The notes under the pieces were generated by a model. The model was not told where the DNA came from. It saw nothing but the letters and a program-made list of their open reading frames with translations, and made no database searches. Positions 34,970 to 43,878 of a stretch of 64,000 nucleotides of DNA are shown here, piece after piece; positions within the stretch are counted from its first letter, which is position 1; each line of letters starts with the position of its first letter. Source of the stretch: Rhodothermales bacterium (lineage in GTDB: Bacteria; Bacteroidota; Rhodothermia; Rhodothermales; JANQRZ01); the NCBI GenBank assembly GCA_039944855.1, contig JBDUXZ010000003.1, positions 62,001 through 126,000 on the forward strand. The letters run 5' to 3'. A program made the translations under genes and the position numbers.

Positions 34970-36457
34970 TTAACGTCGAGGGGACGCCCCGGTGCCCTCC
35001 CGCTCCGCCCGGCGCGTATGGACATAGTCGGAAACGTGCGGCCCGTAGGGCACGAGGAATGGCCCCAGATGATCGGCCCCGCGCACGGTACTCCGGCAGT
35101 TCGCCGCACCGCACGTGCACGGGAAGTCCGGCATCGTCTCGCCGTAGAACGTGGCGTAGTCGAGCGTGACCTCCTCCCCCGCCGCGATCGGCCGCCGCGC
35201 GACGACGTCGAGCCCGTCGAGCCACGCCGTCGGGTCGCAGCTGTGGTTGACGGGCCGCCATTCCTCCGGGTCGTCGCTCCACATCACCCAGACCTCGTCG
35301 GTGAGCGGCCACGCGTAGCGGGCGAACCAGTCCTTCCGCCGCTCGTCCCAGTGCCGCTCGACGTGGCTCCGCGTGACGAGCACATGCGGCTGCTCCTCGT
35401 AGTGCTGCACCGTCTTGCCTTCGGCGATGGGCTCGGTGGCGAACGTGCCGTAGTCGCCGCCGGGGCGTTCGCGGACCTCCCACGGCTCATGCCCGCGCCG
35501 GTGCCGCGCGAGCGCCGCCGCGAGGATTTGGGCGACGAAGCCGCGATGGCCGGCTTCGTCGTGCTGGAGGATGAGGTCGGCGCTGCCGGGGTCGGAGGGC
35601 GGGTAGAAAATCGCGCAGTTCGGGTTGATCTCCAGCAGGTACACCTCGCCCGCCGCGTCGACGCGGAAGTCGCACCGCCCGTAGCTCACGCCGCCGAGGC
35701 CGACGAACACGCGCCGCGCCGCCTCTTTCAGCCGCTCGGCGAGGGCGTCGTCGGCGCAGGGGCGGGCGTGCATGCCGTGGTAATCCACCCACTTCAGGTG
35801 GTAGTGCTTGAACGTCTCGCCTTCGGGGAAGCTGAACTCGATCGGGACGTAGGCCGTCGGCTGCTCCGCATCGTCGGGGTTCTCGGCGACGAGCACGGTG
35901 AACTCGCGGCCCTCGACGAACTCCTCGACGAGCGCCCCGCCGTACGTCTCCATCATCCGTTCGACCTGCTCGCGCAGCGCCTCGGCCGTTTCGACGCGGG
36001 AGTCGCGCGTGAGCCCGATGCTGCTGTAGCTGTTCGGGTGCTTGACGATGAGCGGGAACCGCAGCGTCTCGGCCCGCACCACATCGTCCAGCCGCCGGAC
36101 CATTACCGATGCAGGCGCGGCGATGCCCCACGCCCGTGCTACGCGCTTCATCGCCTCGCGCGACGGCTCGTAAAAGCGGGAGTCCGCGCCAGTGAACGGG
36201 AGGTCCAGCCGCTCCAGCGCCTGCACGACCTCGATCCCCGGCTGGTCCGCGTCCCACGCGCCGTCGCACAGGTTGAGGAAGACGTCGTACCCCTCCCGCG
36301 CGAGGGCGATGAGCTGCGGCACGGCCGTCTTCTTCGTGAGGTACACGAGGTCCGCCTCGTGCCCGTCGAGGTAGACCGTCGGGTCGTACGGGATGTCGTC
36401 GGCCGCGAGCGGCTGCTCGGAATCCTCGACGTGGTAACAGAGCACGCAGACGCGCAT
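34970..36457 (-). CDS. Fusion protein: D-Ala-D-Ala-ligase-like ATP-grasp domain + SET methyltransferase domain
   Basis: A 495-residue cytoplasmic protein. Residues 1-90 form a pre-ATP-grasp region (MRVCVLCYHVEDSEQP). Residues about 95-320 are a carboxylate-amine ligase fold related to D-Ala-D-Ala ligase: FPLIVKHPNSYSSIG (Lys139), ALVEEFVEGREFTVLV and the Mg-binding RCDFRVDAAGEVYLLEINPN (261-280). Residues about 330-440 are a SET domain: GDYGTFATEPIAEGK, RPVNHSCDPTAWLDG (NHSC, 404-407) and GEEVTLDYATFYGE (catalytic Tyr434 region). A post-SET CTCGAANC zinc-type cluster lies at 447-454. One chain thus appears able both to form a peptide or amide bond and to methylate lysine. Start 36457 matches the beginning of the fold. 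The nearest genes offer no obvious substrate. Confidence 0.88.
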   Translation of the reverse strand: MRVCVLCYHVEDSEQPLAADDIPYDPTVYLDGHEADLVYLTKKTAVPQLIALAREGYDVFLNLCDGAWDADQPGIEVVQALERLDLPFTGADSRFYEPSREAMKRVARAWGIAAPASVMVRRLDDVVRAETLRFPLIVKHPNSYSSIGLTRDSRVETAEALREQVERMMETYGGALVEEFVEGREFTVLVAENPDDAEQPTAYVPIEFSFPEGETFKHYHLKWVDYHGMHARPCADDALAERLKEAARRVFVGLGGVSYGRCDFRVDAAGEVYLLEINPNCAIFYPPSDPGSADLILQHDEAGHRGFVAQILAAALARHRRGHEPWEVRERPGGDYGTFATEPIAEGKTVQHYEEQPHVLVTRSHVERHWDERRKDWFARYAWPLTDEVWVMWSDDPEEWRPVNHSCDPTAWLDGLDVVARRPIAAGEEVTLDYATFYGETMPDFPCTCGAANCRSTVRGADHLGPFLVPYGPHVSDYVHTRRAEREGTGASPRR

Positions 36458-36524
36458 CGAAAAGAGTGGTTGGATAGCAGGAACGCGAAGTCTACGCCAC
36501 GTCAGCAATCCTGCGCCGCGTCGG

Positions 36525-36569
36525 AGTCCACGTCCCCCCTCCTTTGAGGAGGGGGACAGGGGGAGGTCC
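36525..36569 (+). repeat. Left 45-bp inverted repeat of the DUF559 cassette
   Basis: Reads AGTCCACGTCCCCCCTCCTT and continues to GGGGGAGGTCC. The reverse complement of 36989-37033 differs at only three positions. Each copy also contains an internal palindrome (CCCCTCCT/AGGAGGGG). Confidence 0.85.
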
Positions 36570-36583
36570 TCAACGGCACCCCC

Positions 36584-36967
36584 TCAATGCTCCCCCCGTC
36601 GCTCTTCCAGCACGAAGCGGATCGCATCGATTACAGTCTCGGGCTGCTCGAACACGAGCCGGTTCTCGAAACGCAGCACGCGGACACCCCGCGTGCGCAA
36701 AAACGCCTCTCGCTCCGCGTCATACTCCCTCCGCGCAGGACCCTCGTGGCTCGCCCCGTCGAGTTCGACGGCGAGTCCGAACTCAGCGCAGTAAAAGTCG
36801 AGTACGAAATGCCCGATGCTATGCTGGCGTCGGAACCGAACACCGTCGAGTTGGCCGCGACGGAGCATTTGCCACAGCGCACGCTCGGCCGGGGTCGCGC
36901 GGCGGCGGAGCGTGCGGCGGACGGGCTTCAAGCGCTTGAGATTGTCGTAGAATCGCTTGCGGGCCAT
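36584..36967 (-). CDS. DUF559 (Vsr-like) endonuclease domain protein
   Basis: A 127-residue protein of the DUF559 family within the PD-(D/E)XK nuclease superfamily, related to very-short-patch repair nucleases. Visible: RRATPAERALWQMLR, GVRFRRQHSIGHFVLDFYC (Asp), LAVELDGASHEG (Glu, Asp) and RGVRVLRFENRLV. It lies wholly inside a pair of 45-bp inverted repeats (36525-36569 and 36989-37033), an arrangement like a small mobile cassette. A cellular role has not been established for this type; it may cut DNA to promote its own spread (inference). Confidence 0.9.
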   Translation of the reverse strand: MARKRFYDNLKRLKPVRRTLRRRATPAERALWQMLRRGQLDGVRFRRQHSIGHFVLDFYCAEFGLAVELDGASHEGPARREYDAEREAFLRTRGVRVLRFENRLVFEQPETVIDAIRFVLEERRGEH

Positions 36968-40121: not shown

Positions 40122-41564
40122 TCACCGCAGCAGCGTGACCCGCTGCGCGAAGCTCCCGCTCGCGCTCTCCAACCGCACGACGTAGACGCCGGCCGGGAGC
40201 GCGCCCGCCGCCAGTCGCACCGCCTGTGCCTCGGCCGTCGCCGGCCCGTCGTGGAGCACGGCCACCTCGCGCCCGAGCACGTCGTAGACGGCGACGCGGG
40301 CGGGCCCGGCCTCGGCGAGGGCGAACGTCAGCGCGGTCTCGGCGCGGAACGGGTTCGGCCCCGCCAGCCGCAACGAAGCCTCGCGCTCCGGCACTGCGCC
40401 CGGTTCCGTCGCGACCGCCGCGCGAGCGAGCCGATAGACCGACCCGAGATACCCGAGCACGTAGAGTTCGCCGTCGGCCCCTTCGCCGAACGAGGAAAGC
40501 AGGAAGTCCGCATCCAGCAACTCTGTGTTCGCGACGGCCCCGCTCACGGGGTCGACGGCCAGCGACCAGACCTTTCCGCTGATGAAATCGCCGTAGATGT
40601 ACGTCCCGACCAGCTCCGGCAGGGCCGTCCCGCGGTAGACGTAGCCGCCCGTCACCGAGCGCCCATCGCTCCGGTCGTACTCCCACACGGGCAACATGAG
40701 GCCCTCCATCGAGCAGTCCGTCCTCGGGTTGTAGCAGTGCAGCGCTTCCATCACGTCCCACCCGTAGTTGCCGCCGAGCACGACGCGGCTTACCTCCTCG
40801 TAGCTGTCCTGCCCGACATCGCCGAGCCACAGATCGCCCGTCTCCGCGTCGAAGGACATGCGCCACGGGCTGCGGAAGCCGTAGGCGTAGATCTCGTCGC
40901 GCTCCGGCCCATCGCTGCCGGCAAACGGGTTATCGGGCGGGATGCCGTAGGGCAAGCCGGGGTCCGGGTTGTCCACGTCGATGCGGAGGACGGAGCCGAG
41001 GAGGGTCGTGGGGTCCTGCCCGTTGACGGCCTGCGTCGCGCTGTTGCCCCCGTCGCCGAGTGGGAGGTAGAGGTAGCCATCGGGGCCGAACGCGATGCTT
41101 CCGCCGTTGTGGTTGAACTCCGGCTGCGCGACTTCGAGCAGCACCTCCTCGCTCGACGGATCGGCCACCGGCGGGTCATCCGCCGACCGGCTGAAGCGAG
41201 AGAACACGGTGCGGCGCGTCGCCCCCGTTCCGGCCACGTACCCGACGAAGACGTAGCCGTTGTCGGCGTAGTCGGGATGGAAGGCGAACCCCATGATTCC
41301 CCCCTCCAGGTTGCCCTCTCCGACGCGGTCCCGGATGTCGAGGTAGATCCCGAGCGGGCGCTCCCCTTCGATCACGCGGATCGCCCCGCGCTGTTCGGCG
41401 ACGTAGATCCGCCCGGCCTCGTCATGCCGGAGATCCGTGATGGGCCTGAAGTTGACGCCGGTAAACACCTCCTCCAGCGTCACCTGCGCCGTCGCTGCGG
41501 GCGCGGCGATGCAGAGCAGGATGATCGAGAACAGGAGGCGGAACGTGGGGGCGAAAGGGCGCAT
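40122..41564 (-). CDS. PQQ-type sugar dehydrogenase with T9SS sorting domain (copy 1)
   Basis: A 480-residue exported six-bladed propeller of the soluble glucose dehydrogenase/Hedgehog-interacting type. Signal LLFSIILLCIAAPAATAQ; then RIYVAEQRGAIRVIEG, GIMGFAFHPDYADNGYVFVGY, FNHNGGSIAFGPDGYLYLPLGDGG and GGNYGWDVMEALHCY. These carry the catalytic-histidine and PQQ-binding regions of the family. The T9SS tail starts LRLAGPNPFRAET. Likely oxidises sugars at the cell surface. Its C-terminal 210 bp is about 97 % identical to that of the next gene upstream. Confidence 0.92.
   Translation of the reverse strand: MRPFAPTFRLLFSIILLCIAAPAATAQVTLEEVFTGVNFRPITDLRHDEAGRIYVAEQRGAIRVIEGERPLGIYLDIRDRVGEGNLEGGIMGFAFHPDYADNGYVFVGYVAGTGATRRTVFSRFSRSADDPPVADPSSEEVLLEVAQPEFNHNGGSIAFGPDGYLYLPLGDGGNSATQAVNGQDPTTLLGSVLRIDVDNPDPGLPYGIPPDNPFAGSDGPERDEIYAYGFRSPWRMSFDAETGDLWLGDVGQDSYEEVSRVVLGGNYGWDVMEALHCYNPRTDCSMEGLMLPVWEYDRSDGRSVTGGYVYRGTALPELVGTYIYGDFISGKVWSLAVDPVSGAVANTELLDADFLLSSFGEGADGELYVLGYLGSVYRLARAAVATEPGAVPEREASLRLAGPNPFRAETALTFALAEAGPARVAVYDVLGREVAVLHDGPATAEAQAVRLAAGALPAGVYVVRLESASGSFAQRVTLLR
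40174..40383 (-). repeat. Near-identical sorting-domain DNA segment, copy A
   Basis: This 210-bp stretch matches 41669-41878 with seven mismatches and no gaps by eye. It encodes the core of the T9SS domain (LRLAGPNPFR ... YDVLGREVAVLHDGPATAEAQ). The catalytic regions of the two genes are far more diverged. Confidence 0.85.
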
Positions 41565-41616
41565 CGTATGCGTCGTGGAGTGGGTTCGGTCGGAGGCGGG
41601 GCAGTCAGCGGGGCGG

Positions 41617-43062
41617 TCAGCGGACGAGCATCACTTTCAGCGTGTGCTCGGCGCTGCCGGACGTCAGCCGCACGACGTAGAGGCCGGCCGGGAGCGCACC
41701 CGCCGCCAGCCGCACCGCCTGCGCCTCGGCCGTCGCCGGCCCGTCGTGGAGCACGGCCACCTCGCGCCCGAGCACGTCGTAGACGGCGACGCGGGCGGGC
41801 CCGGCCTCGGCGAGGGCGAACGTCAGCGCGGTCTCGCCGCGGAACGGATTCGGCCCCGCCAGCCGCAGCGAAGCCTCGTCACGCTCCGGCACCCCGACGG
41901 TGTCCGACGTGCCCTCCTGGAAGAAGCGGTAGACGCGGCCGTTCTGACGGACGAAGTAGAGCTCGCCGGCCGCATCTTCACCAAAGGAAGTGAGCGTGCT
42001 GAAGGTGCCGACAGCGAGCGCCTCATTCGTCACCGGACGGCCCGAATCGTCGAGCGCCCAGAGCTGCCCGCTGCAGTAGTCGCCGTAGATGTAGCGCCCT
42101 TCGAGCGCGGGCACGTCGCTGCCTCGGTAGACGTAGCCGCCGGTGACGGAGCAGTGGGGCGATCCGGACTGGCTGCTGTACACCCACGCGGGGAACGTGA
42201 GGCCCTCGGGATCGCACGGCCCGTCGAAGCAGGCGTTGCCCTCGTACGTATTCCAGCCGTAGTTGCCGCCGTCTTCCATCCGATCTACCTCCTCCCACGC
42301 GCCCTGGCCGACGTCGGCGATCCAGCCCTCGCCGGTCTCGCGGTCGAAGGAGAAGCGCCACGGGTTGCGGAGGCCCCAGGCGTAGATCTCGTCGCACGAG
42401 CCGCCCGGCCCGTCGGCGATCGCGTTCGGCGGAACGGTGTAGTTCGCGCCCGGGCCGCCGCAGTCGGGCGCAGTGCCGCCGCCGTCGACGTCGAGGCGGA
42501 GGATGGCGCCGAGGAGCGTCGTGGGGTCCTGCCCGTTCTCTTCCGGGTCGCCGCCGGAGCCGCCGTCGCCGAAGGAGGCGTAGAGGTAGCCGTCGGGCCC
42601 GAAGGCGAGGCCGCCGCCGTTGTGGTTGCTGAACGGCTGCGCGATGTCGAGCAGGACCAGCTCGCTATCGGGGTCGCCCTGCTGCGGGTTCGCCGTCGAA
42701 CGGGAGAACCGCGAGACGCGCGAGCGCAGCGGGCTCGCCACCGTGTAGTTGACGTAGAAGTACCCGTTCGTCTCGTAGTCCGGGTGGAACGCGAGCCCGA
42801 GCAGCCCCGTCTCGCCGCCGCTCGTGACGCGGTCATCGATGTCGAGGAAGACGCTCGTCGTGCTCACGTCGGGGTCGTTGTCGAAGACGCGGATGACGCC
42901 GCGCTGCTCGACGACGTAGAGGAGGTCCGGGTTCACCGGGTCGTGCTCGACGCCGACCGGGCTGCTGAAGGTGAGGTTGGGAAAGGCGAGGTCCGCGCTG
43001 AGTTGGGCGGATGCGGGGGCCGCGAAGGCGAGGAGGAGCGCGGCGAAGAGGAGGGGGCGCAT
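41617..43062 (-). CDS. PQQ-type sugar dehydrogenase with T9SS sorting domain (copy 2)
   Basis: A 481-residue paralogue of the previous gene, 52 bp upstream and in the same direction. Signal LLFAALLLAFAAPASAQ; LLYVVEQRGVIRVFDN, GLLGLAFHPDYETNGYFYVNY, FSNHNGGGLAFGPDGYLYASFGDGG and NYGWNTYEGNACF mark the six-bladed propeller. Several cysteines (CGGPG, CDEIY, CFDGPC, CSVTGG, CSGQLW) suggest disulfides consistent with export. The C-terminal T9SS domain is nearly identical in DNA to that of copy 1. Confidence 0.92.
   Translation of the reverse strand: MRPLLFAALLLAFAAPASAQLSADLAFPNLTFSSPVGVEHDPVNPDLLYVVEQRGVIRVFDNDPDVSTTSVFLDIDDRVTSGGETGLLGLAFHPDYETNGYFYVNYTVASPLRSRVSRFSRSTANPQQGDPDSELVLLDIAQPFSNHNGGGLAFGPDGYLYASFGDGGSGGDPEENGQDPTTLLGAILRLDVDGGGTAPDCGGPGANYTVPPNAIADGPGGSCDEIYAWGLRNPWRFSFDRETGEGWIADVGQGAWEEVDRMEDGGNYGWNTYEGNACFDGPCDPEGLTFPAWVYSSQSGSPHCSVTGGYVYRGSDVPALEGRYIYGDYCSGQLWALDDSGRPVTNEALAVGTFSTLTSFGEDAAGELYFVRQNGRVYRFFQEGTSDTVGVPERDEASLRLAGPNPFRGETALTFALAEAGPARVAVYDVLGREVAVLHDGPATAEAQAVRLAAGALPAGLYVVRLTSGSAEHTLKVMLVR
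41669..41878 (-). repeat. Near-identical sorting-domain DNA segment, copy B
   Basis: Partner of 40174-40383; see that entry. Same orientation and same length. Confidence 0.85.
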
Positions 43063-43254
43063 GACGGACGGGGTCGTGGTGGGCGATGCGGGGCCGATAT
43101 ATACTAAAAAACGGCGCAGCTTGGAAGGCGGATCGGCACCACCCGAGCAGATGGGAACGCCTGTGCGAGCGGCCGGCCGGACAGGAGGCACGATGGCCCG
43201 GCGCCTCGTCGTTGATGTAGCTTCCGCCCTTTCCCGTTCGCCTTCCCCTCCCCG

Positions 43255-43878
43255 ATGCGGTCCCTCCTCTTCCTGCTGCTCGCCGGGGCGTGCGCGTGCA
43301 CGCTCGGCGCCTGCGCGTCCACCGCCGATCCGCCGGCTCTCCCTCCCGTCCCCGAGCGCGTGACGGCGTGGGAGGCGTGGCGCGCGGCGAAGGACTCGCT
43401 CTTCCGCAGCCCGGCCACCCCGCTGCTGCCCACGCAGCAGGGCGCGTTCCGCGGGCTCCCGTACTTCGACTACGACTCGACGCTCGCCTTCGCCGTCACG
43501 CTCGACCCGACGCTCCAGCGCGACACCCTCCGCATGGCGACCTCCACCGGCGAGCCGCGCGACTACGTCCGCTTCGGCTCGTTCTCGTTCCCCTTCGATG
43601 GCCGCCGCCACCGCCTCGCCGTCTTCCAACCGCTCGACCCGAACGAGCGCCGCCTCTTCCTCCCCTTCGCCGACGCCACGAGCGGCGGCGCTACCTACAG
43701 CGCCGGCCGCTACCTCGACTTCGACCCGGCACCGGACGGGCGCTACGTGCTGGACTTCAACTACGCCTACAGCCCGTACTGCGCTTACAACCCGAGCTAC
43801 AGCTGCCCGCTACCGCCGCCCGAGAACAGGCTGCCCATCGCCGTCCGCGCGGGCGAACGGAACGCGACATCGGCCTGA
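43255..43878 (+). CDS. DUF1684 lipoprotein
   Basis: A 207-residue DUF1684 protein. Lipobox CTLGAC near residues 15-20; then YFDYDSTLAFAVTLDPTLQR, and the family core RLFLPFADATSGGATYSAGRYLD, VLDFNYAYSPYCAYNPSYSC and PLPPPENRLPIAVRAGE. The family is common in environmental bacteria, without known biochemistry. It is divergent from the sugar dehydrogenase operon and convergent with the poly-Asp lipoprotein gene. Confidence 0.92.
   Translation: MRSLLFLLLAGACACTLGACASTADPPALPPVPERVTAWEAWRAAKDSLFRSPATPLLPTQQGAFRGLPYFDYDSTLAFAVTLDPTLQRDTLRMATSTGEPRDYVRFGSFSFPFDGRRHRLAVFQPLDPNERRLFLPFADATSGGATYSAGRYLDFDPAPDGRYVLDFNYAYSPYCAYNPSYSCPLPPPENRLPIAVRAGERNATSA

Follow-up and report, generated by a model that had tools for sequence, protein, structure and literature searches.

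A recurrent bacterial fusion of a Ddl-fold ATP-grasp ligase and a SET domain

What would a bacterium make with a protein that joins an ATP-grasp ligase to a SET methyltransferase domain in one chain, and is such a protein real? The question is raised by a frame in the window, by which we mean the whole stretch of 64 000 nt analyzed here, a part of contig 3 in the 4.6-Mb assembly of a Rhodothermales bacterium. The frame runs unbroken on the minus strand over 495 codons, from an ATG at 36457 to a stop at 34970 (Table 1). An in-frame TTG at 36508 is a possible longer gene start, but the alignment with homologues starts at the ATG of position 36457. By Pfam, residues 129–279 match Dala_Dala_lig_C (E 2e-20, above the curated cut-off) and residues 336–434 match SET (E 3e-10, 40.7 bits against a cut-off of 22.4), which bears out an earlier note, made from the sequence alone, that had read both domains in a single frame. 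The SET and post-SET parts together span residues 334–465. The residues named in that note are also found where it placed them, namely K139, EINPN at 276–280, NHSC at 404–407, DY at 433–434 and the CxCx4C cysteines C447, C449 and C454. From what is known of post-SET domains we assume that these three cysteines bind zinc together with C407. An open frame alone is weak evidence for a gene at this locus, because a 509-codon frame antisense to it (35018–36547, plus strand) is open at the same G+C, as is expected in G+C-rich coding DNA.

Table 1. Positions of the fusion gene and its parts in the window
Feature	Position	Strand	Evidence
ATP-grasp–SET fusion, whole gene, 495 aa + stop	34970..36457	-	Pfam, homologues, alignment of 34 fusions, AlphaFold2
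ATP-grasp domain, Ddl fold, residues 1-318	35504..36457	-	Pfam, structural match, invariant residues, comparison with the Ddl of the window genome
Linker, residues 319-333, under relaxed selection	35459..35503	-	dN/dS by region; rough, as it covers 15 codons
SET domain, residues 336-434 (Pfam), ends at D433-Y434	35156..35452	-	Pfam, domain-alone model, fold match
NHSC motif, residues 404-407, H405 and C407 invariant	35237..35248	-	Alignments A2, A3
Post-SET CxCx4C, residues 447-454, putative zinc site with C407	35096..35119	-	C447, C449, C454 invariant
C-terminal helices, residues 466-486	35000..35062	-	Predicted secondary structure, alignment

Two further observations concern the surroundings in the window. 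Directly upstream of the fusion lies a gene for a DUF559 (endonuclease-like) protein (36584–36967, minus strand), which was not seen at this place in the closest relative, L031. Farther away (40122–43629, minus strand) two adjacent genes encode secreted glucose-dehydrogenase-like proteins with a near-identical C-terminal sorting-type domain, LRLAGPNPFR.ETALTFALAEAGPARVAVYDVLGREVAVL, and this shared domain suggests a recent duplication or conversion.

We scanned one genome per GTDB species and obtained 63 related loci, the frames of which were read. The SET domain is fused to the ATP-grasp in 27 of them, and in the other 36 the ATP-grasp stands alone. The fused loci come from about eight phyla (Rhodothermota, Gemmatimonadota, Acidobacteriota, Bacteroidota, Actinomycetota, Myxococcota, Pseudomonadota and Methylomirabilota), and isolate genomes are among the carriers. 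Within the window's own phylum, a search of 395 genomes gave 17 fusions including that of the window, and some of these genomes consist of one or three contigs. Full-length fusions were observed in relatives of the same order at 76, 61 and 54% identity to the window protein and in other genomes at 36–76%; a plasmid collection that we searched contained no homologue of the fusion protein. In an alignment of 34 fusions the ATP-grasp residues K139, E178, K222, R261, D263, E276 and N278 and the SET and post-SET residues H405, C407, C447, C449 and C454 are invariant, and D433 and Y434 are kept at ≥90%. The catalytic residues of neither domain have thus been lost. For both domains dN/dS is about 0.05–0.2. 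Between the window and L031, the Nei–Gojobori method gave dN 0.17 and dS 0.87 for the ligase and dN 0.09 and dS 0.77 for the SET domain, while in the fast-evolving linker of 15 residues dN about equals dS; other sequence pairs gave the same picture for the two domains. Both halves are therefore under purifying selection. AlphaFold2 with the family alignment modelled the whole fusion at pLDDT 91.1 and pTM 0.86, and the SET domain alone at pLDDT 92.8. Since full-length homologues occur elsewhere at such identities and both domains are selected, the fusion is a real gene architecture, neither an artefact nor a chance frame. A sequencing or assembly error or a chance open frame, for which the long antisense frame might speak by showing how cheap open frames are at this G+C, has a negligible probability and is refuted by the independent full-length loci of the family scan together with those of the whole-genome search.

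Next, we consider the ligase half, which the earlier note had called D-Ala-D-Ala-ligase-type. The fold agrees: over residues 1–320 the fusion resembles Ddl structures (e.g. PDB 8evv and 6u1f) with Z about 30 and shares their ATP/Mg residues, and the comparison with 8evv by VIA-align gave Z 30.9 and an rmsd of 2.3 over 293 residues. The window genome encodes a separate true Ddl (225 bits), with the ATP/Mg2+ residues of which K139, E178, R261, D263, E276 and N278 of the fusion align. The two motifs that hold the two D-Ala in Ddl, GGxSxE and PGFTxxS(M/L)xP, are present in this Ddl as GGVSSEHE and PGFTERSMFP, but in the alignment with it both are absent from the fusion, which is why the label can be kept for the fold only. 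The fusion scores 77.9 bits against the TIGR01205 cut-off of 245.65, lies far under every NCBIfam Ddl cut-off and, unlike Ddl, carries an added SET domain. Judged by its sequence, it is not the cell-wall D-Ala-D-Ala ligase. ATP-grasp enzymes of this fold form an acyl-phosphate and then an amide bond.

The nearest outgroup of the fusion's ATP-grasp is likewise not Ddl, but a set of KamA-linked ATP-grasps of Rhodothermota and Bacteroidota (L006–L030, L165–L175), which are about 30–34% identical. They differ from the fusion in having no SET domain; their partner is a radical-SAM enzyme of the lysine-2,3-aminomutase family and, in some genomes, a GNAT protein. In the window's order the outgroup ATP-grasp adjoins such a radical-SAM gene (LAM_C) at about 22 loci, and the window genome itself carries a pair of this kind within about 3 kb (L178 3935–8333, contig 33). 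In other Bacteroidota (L165–L172, e.g. L165 6717–11927) we observed two tandem Ddl-fold ATP-grasps, a GNAT protein and a KamA-family radical-SAM enzyme. The KamA/LAM_C proteins next to outgroup ATP-grasps score lower than the cut-offs specific for lysine, arginine and glutamate. Two loci, L080 and L089, hold the ATP-grasp of the fusion family together with members of the KamA-linked set. Taken together, these associations hint that the wider ATP-grasp family is tied to amino-acid metabolism, perhaps to that of lysine. As observations in their own right, the Ddl-fold ATP-grasp and the radical-SAM gene form a conserved and apparently unnamed pair across the window's order (L006–L030, L175), and in some of the rows L165–L172 an M24 peptidase gene comes next after the radical-SAM gene.

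The other half is, by its Pfam score, its NHSC and DY motifs and its fold, a putative SET-domain methyltransferase. The F/Y-switch position varies among known SET families, and for this reason we dropped the F/Y-switch argument for the substrate. Fold was dropped as a guide as well, as BurB and lysine methyltransferases tie: the SET part of the fusion matches SET enzymes at Z 8–10.7, with 9.9 for BurB and 10.7 for the lysine methyltransferases. At the level of sequence the best PDB match of the window SET is BurB (E 1.2e-9, against 2.2e-7 for KMT2D); the same applies to a stand-alone SET of a related gene row (BurB 1.7e-9, KMT2A 3.6e-4), and a search of the PDB with profile A3 gave BurB at E 5.3e-22 with KMT2 next. 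BurB is a SET enzyme that converts free methionine to S-methyl-methionine, and it is a stand-alone, tetrameric protein of 172 aa with Ser88 between Met and SAM (PMC12542666). The earlier note's premise that SET domains methylate lysine was hence too narrow, and because the best sequence match acts on a free amino acid, a small amino acid would be a reasonable first guess for the substrate. H93 and Y124 of BurB (PDB 9l4t, 9l4v) match H405 and Y434 of the fusion, and the post-SET pattern CxCG..NCR is common to both; Ser88, however, aligns with Trp400, the SET domain is fused here, and the N-terminal half of BurB is not alignable by sequence. Lysine methyltransferases of the KMT2/SETD2 type share the SET and post-SET fold (Z 9–10.7), NHSC and DY with the fusion, but are second-best by sequence, and a chromatin context is missing. 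In the R-F-x-N-H-S-C-x-P-N motif, which varies among known families, the fusions keep NHSC-DP and replace the R-F before x-N-H by W-[RK]-P.

To describe the history of the family we call its ATP-grasp, fused or unfused, AG1 and the second ATP-grasp found in the gene rows AG2. A tree of 119 ATP-grasps joins the 71 AG1 rows, fused and unfused, in one clade (SH-aLRT 98) with AG2 as its sister (96), and both together are set off from the KamA-linked ATP-grasps at 100, with Ddl as a single long outgroup and the rooting therefore weak. Fused and unfused AG1 alternate in the tree with at least six changes. In the SET tree the 41 fused SETs form one clade (SH-aLRT 95) and the stand-alone neighbouring SETs of several phyla, with the motif FYPSTEWxM, another (97); BurB groups with the latter at SH-aLRT 80, as calculated from a 92-residue fragment. 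At E 0.01 no decayed SET remnant was found in the 900 bp downstream of 35 loci with an unfused ATP-grasp, and in about a dozen genomes with unfused AG1 no SET is detectable anywhere, which means that some lineages can do without the methylation step. The simplest reading would be one fusion event followed by several losses of the SET domain, or by transfers, the counts themselves giving no direction.

The earlier note had also stated that nothing nearby names the substrate. This holds for the window; the gene rows of relatives, in contrast, are informative. Chitinophagaceae show a row of stand-alone SET, AG2, the AG1-SET fusion and an ABC_membrane_3 protein, in some of them with another SET; in another Bacteroidota family the row is SET, fusion, a 585-aa ABC exporter and a 120-aa SET. 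In a Gemmatimonadota contig (L089 4062–10323) AG2, an ABC exporter, a SET, a third ATP-grasp and a GNAT protein lie beside AG1, making three Ddl-fold ATP-grasps in all. A proteobacterial locus (L050) has an ABC gene and a cupin, then the fusion and a second SET, and in Archangium (L065) a SET gene lies next to a separate AG1 gene. By gene order, the rows of fusion, AG2, stand-alone SET and ABC exporter are operon-like in several phyla. Outside Bacteroidota most fused copies, that of the window among them, lack these conserved neighbours, and clustering of the neighbours of about 75 loci gave no convincing recurrent family beyond SET, ATP-grasp and ABC genes. We also recognized a very short SET gene (118–120 aa) directly behind the ABC exporter gene at four loci (L124 12227–12589, L125 6812–7174, L126 12756–13112 and L133 6926–7282). 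Paralogous peptides of some 60 aa, arranged in tandem and with the conserved end FTAADLWNIQRQ..RRF, occur just downstream of the fusion in L058 (11950–12700) and close to it in L131 (6115–6444); copies are found elsewhere in the same genomes, and the peptides are absent beside most fusions.

The explanation we favour, ahead of a protein-modifying enzyme but still with somewhat less than an even chance of being right, is an enzyme with two activities, by which an amino acid is methylated and joined into a small product. We infer activity of both halves, a small amino acid or peptide as substrate, the order of the steps, the identity and role of the product, and its export. The N-terminal ATP-grasp would convert a carboxylate to an acyl-phosphate and let an amine react with it, so that an isopeptide bond or one like that of a dipeptide is formed. 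Either before or after this ligation the SET domain would transfer the methyl group of SAM to the side chain of one of the amino acids, at the sulfur of Met or at an amino group, for instance that of Lys or of beta-Lys. Some relatives have a further ATP-grasp and a further SET of the BurB-like type, which might extend the product, and an ABC transporter that might export it; the window lineage may manage with the single fusion. For this proposal speak the two catalytic sites kept in the aligned fusions, the purifying selection, the gene-row partners, the BurB match, the radical-SAM-linked outgroup, and a separate Ddl in the genome together with the lack of Ddl substrate motifs in the fusion. 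Against it stand the structural tie of BurB with lysine methyltransferases, the change of Ser88 to Trp400, the grouping of BurB with stand-alone SETs at an SH-aLRT of just 80, the many fused copies outside Bacteroidota that lack conserved neighbours, and the unfused-AG1 genomes from which SET is missing.

A protein tail or the enzyme itself, two of the targets that the earlier note had put forward, would be a less probable substrate. In such a protein-modifying enzyme the SET domain would methylate a protein lysine and the ATP-grasp would attach a peptide or single amino acid to that protein, in the manner of RimK or TTL. The intact NHSC, DY and post-SET zinc set and the fold near KMT2/SETD2-type enzymes fit this, and eukaryotic TTLL12 joins ATP-grasp-like and SET-like domains in a protein-tail context (PMC3520985). 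We nevertheless regard it as unlikely: the ATP-grasp is of the Ddl kind and not RimK- or TTL-like, no protein target is linked to the fusion, the genes that accompany it in rows encode exporters and more small ligases, the closest SET by sequence is a free-amino-acid methyltransferase, and W-[RK]-P replaces the R-F that is canonical in many lysine SETs. The tandem FTAADLWNIQRQ..RRF peptides at two loci and the ABC exporters of several rows could instead indicate an enzyme that ligates and methylates an encoded precursor peptide. Such ribosomal-peptide tailoring appears quite improbable, as similar peptides are also found at other places in the genomes concerned and are missing beside most fusions, the exporters examined have no peptidase C39 domain, the ATP-grasp does not belong with the RimK-like ones of graspetide systems and no precursor was recognised within the window. 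If the ATP-grasp were the sole catalyst and SET a SAM-binding regulatory or structural appendage, the majority of loci without a fused SET and the genomes without any SET would fit, but the conservation of H405, C407, D433/Y434 and the zinc cysteines, complete or nearly so, a selection on SET as strong as that on the ligase, and the separate SET genes of another clade that adjoin the fusion make this very improbable.

The earlier note knew of no characterised bacterial enzyme of this design, and we likewise found none described in the 5.39 million open-access papers searched: for SET combined with ATP-grasp they yielded TTLL12 alone, and the bacterial architecture is not described there. TTLL12 also has both domain types in one chain, with a SET-like domain N-terminal to the TTL domain, but it has lost critical residues and no activity was found (PMC3520985). 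It differs from the fusion in its reversed domain order, in its subfamilies (SETD3/4/6-like SET, and TTL) and in the loss of catalytic residues that the fusion keeps. A review of bacterial SET proteins does not mention ligases (PMC3980110). Joined in several phyla by an accessory ATP-grasp, a SET of the BurB-like type and an ABC exporter, the one-chain ligase–methyltransferases may be an undescribed family that makes a methylated amino-acid conjugate, e.g. a dipeptide with a sulfonium group or with methyl-lysine that serves as signal or stress solute, a reading that, taken as a whole, we regard as plausible yet more doubtful than not.

Bacterial SET proteins are mostly taken for histone mimics or carry annotations as protein-lysine methyltransferases. 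That free-living bacteria from at least eight phyla have a SET domain fused to a presumed amino-acid ligase is an argument that small-molecule biosynthesis is the task of some part of the bacterial SET superfamily; BurB is the one solved SET of this kind that the analysis came across. The fusion also points to a presumed peptide-like pathway, whose gene rows are defined in cultured Chitinophagaceae and open to direct tests there. If the reading as a methylated conjugate is true, SET domains would be enzymes of small-molecule biosynthesis well beyond BurB.
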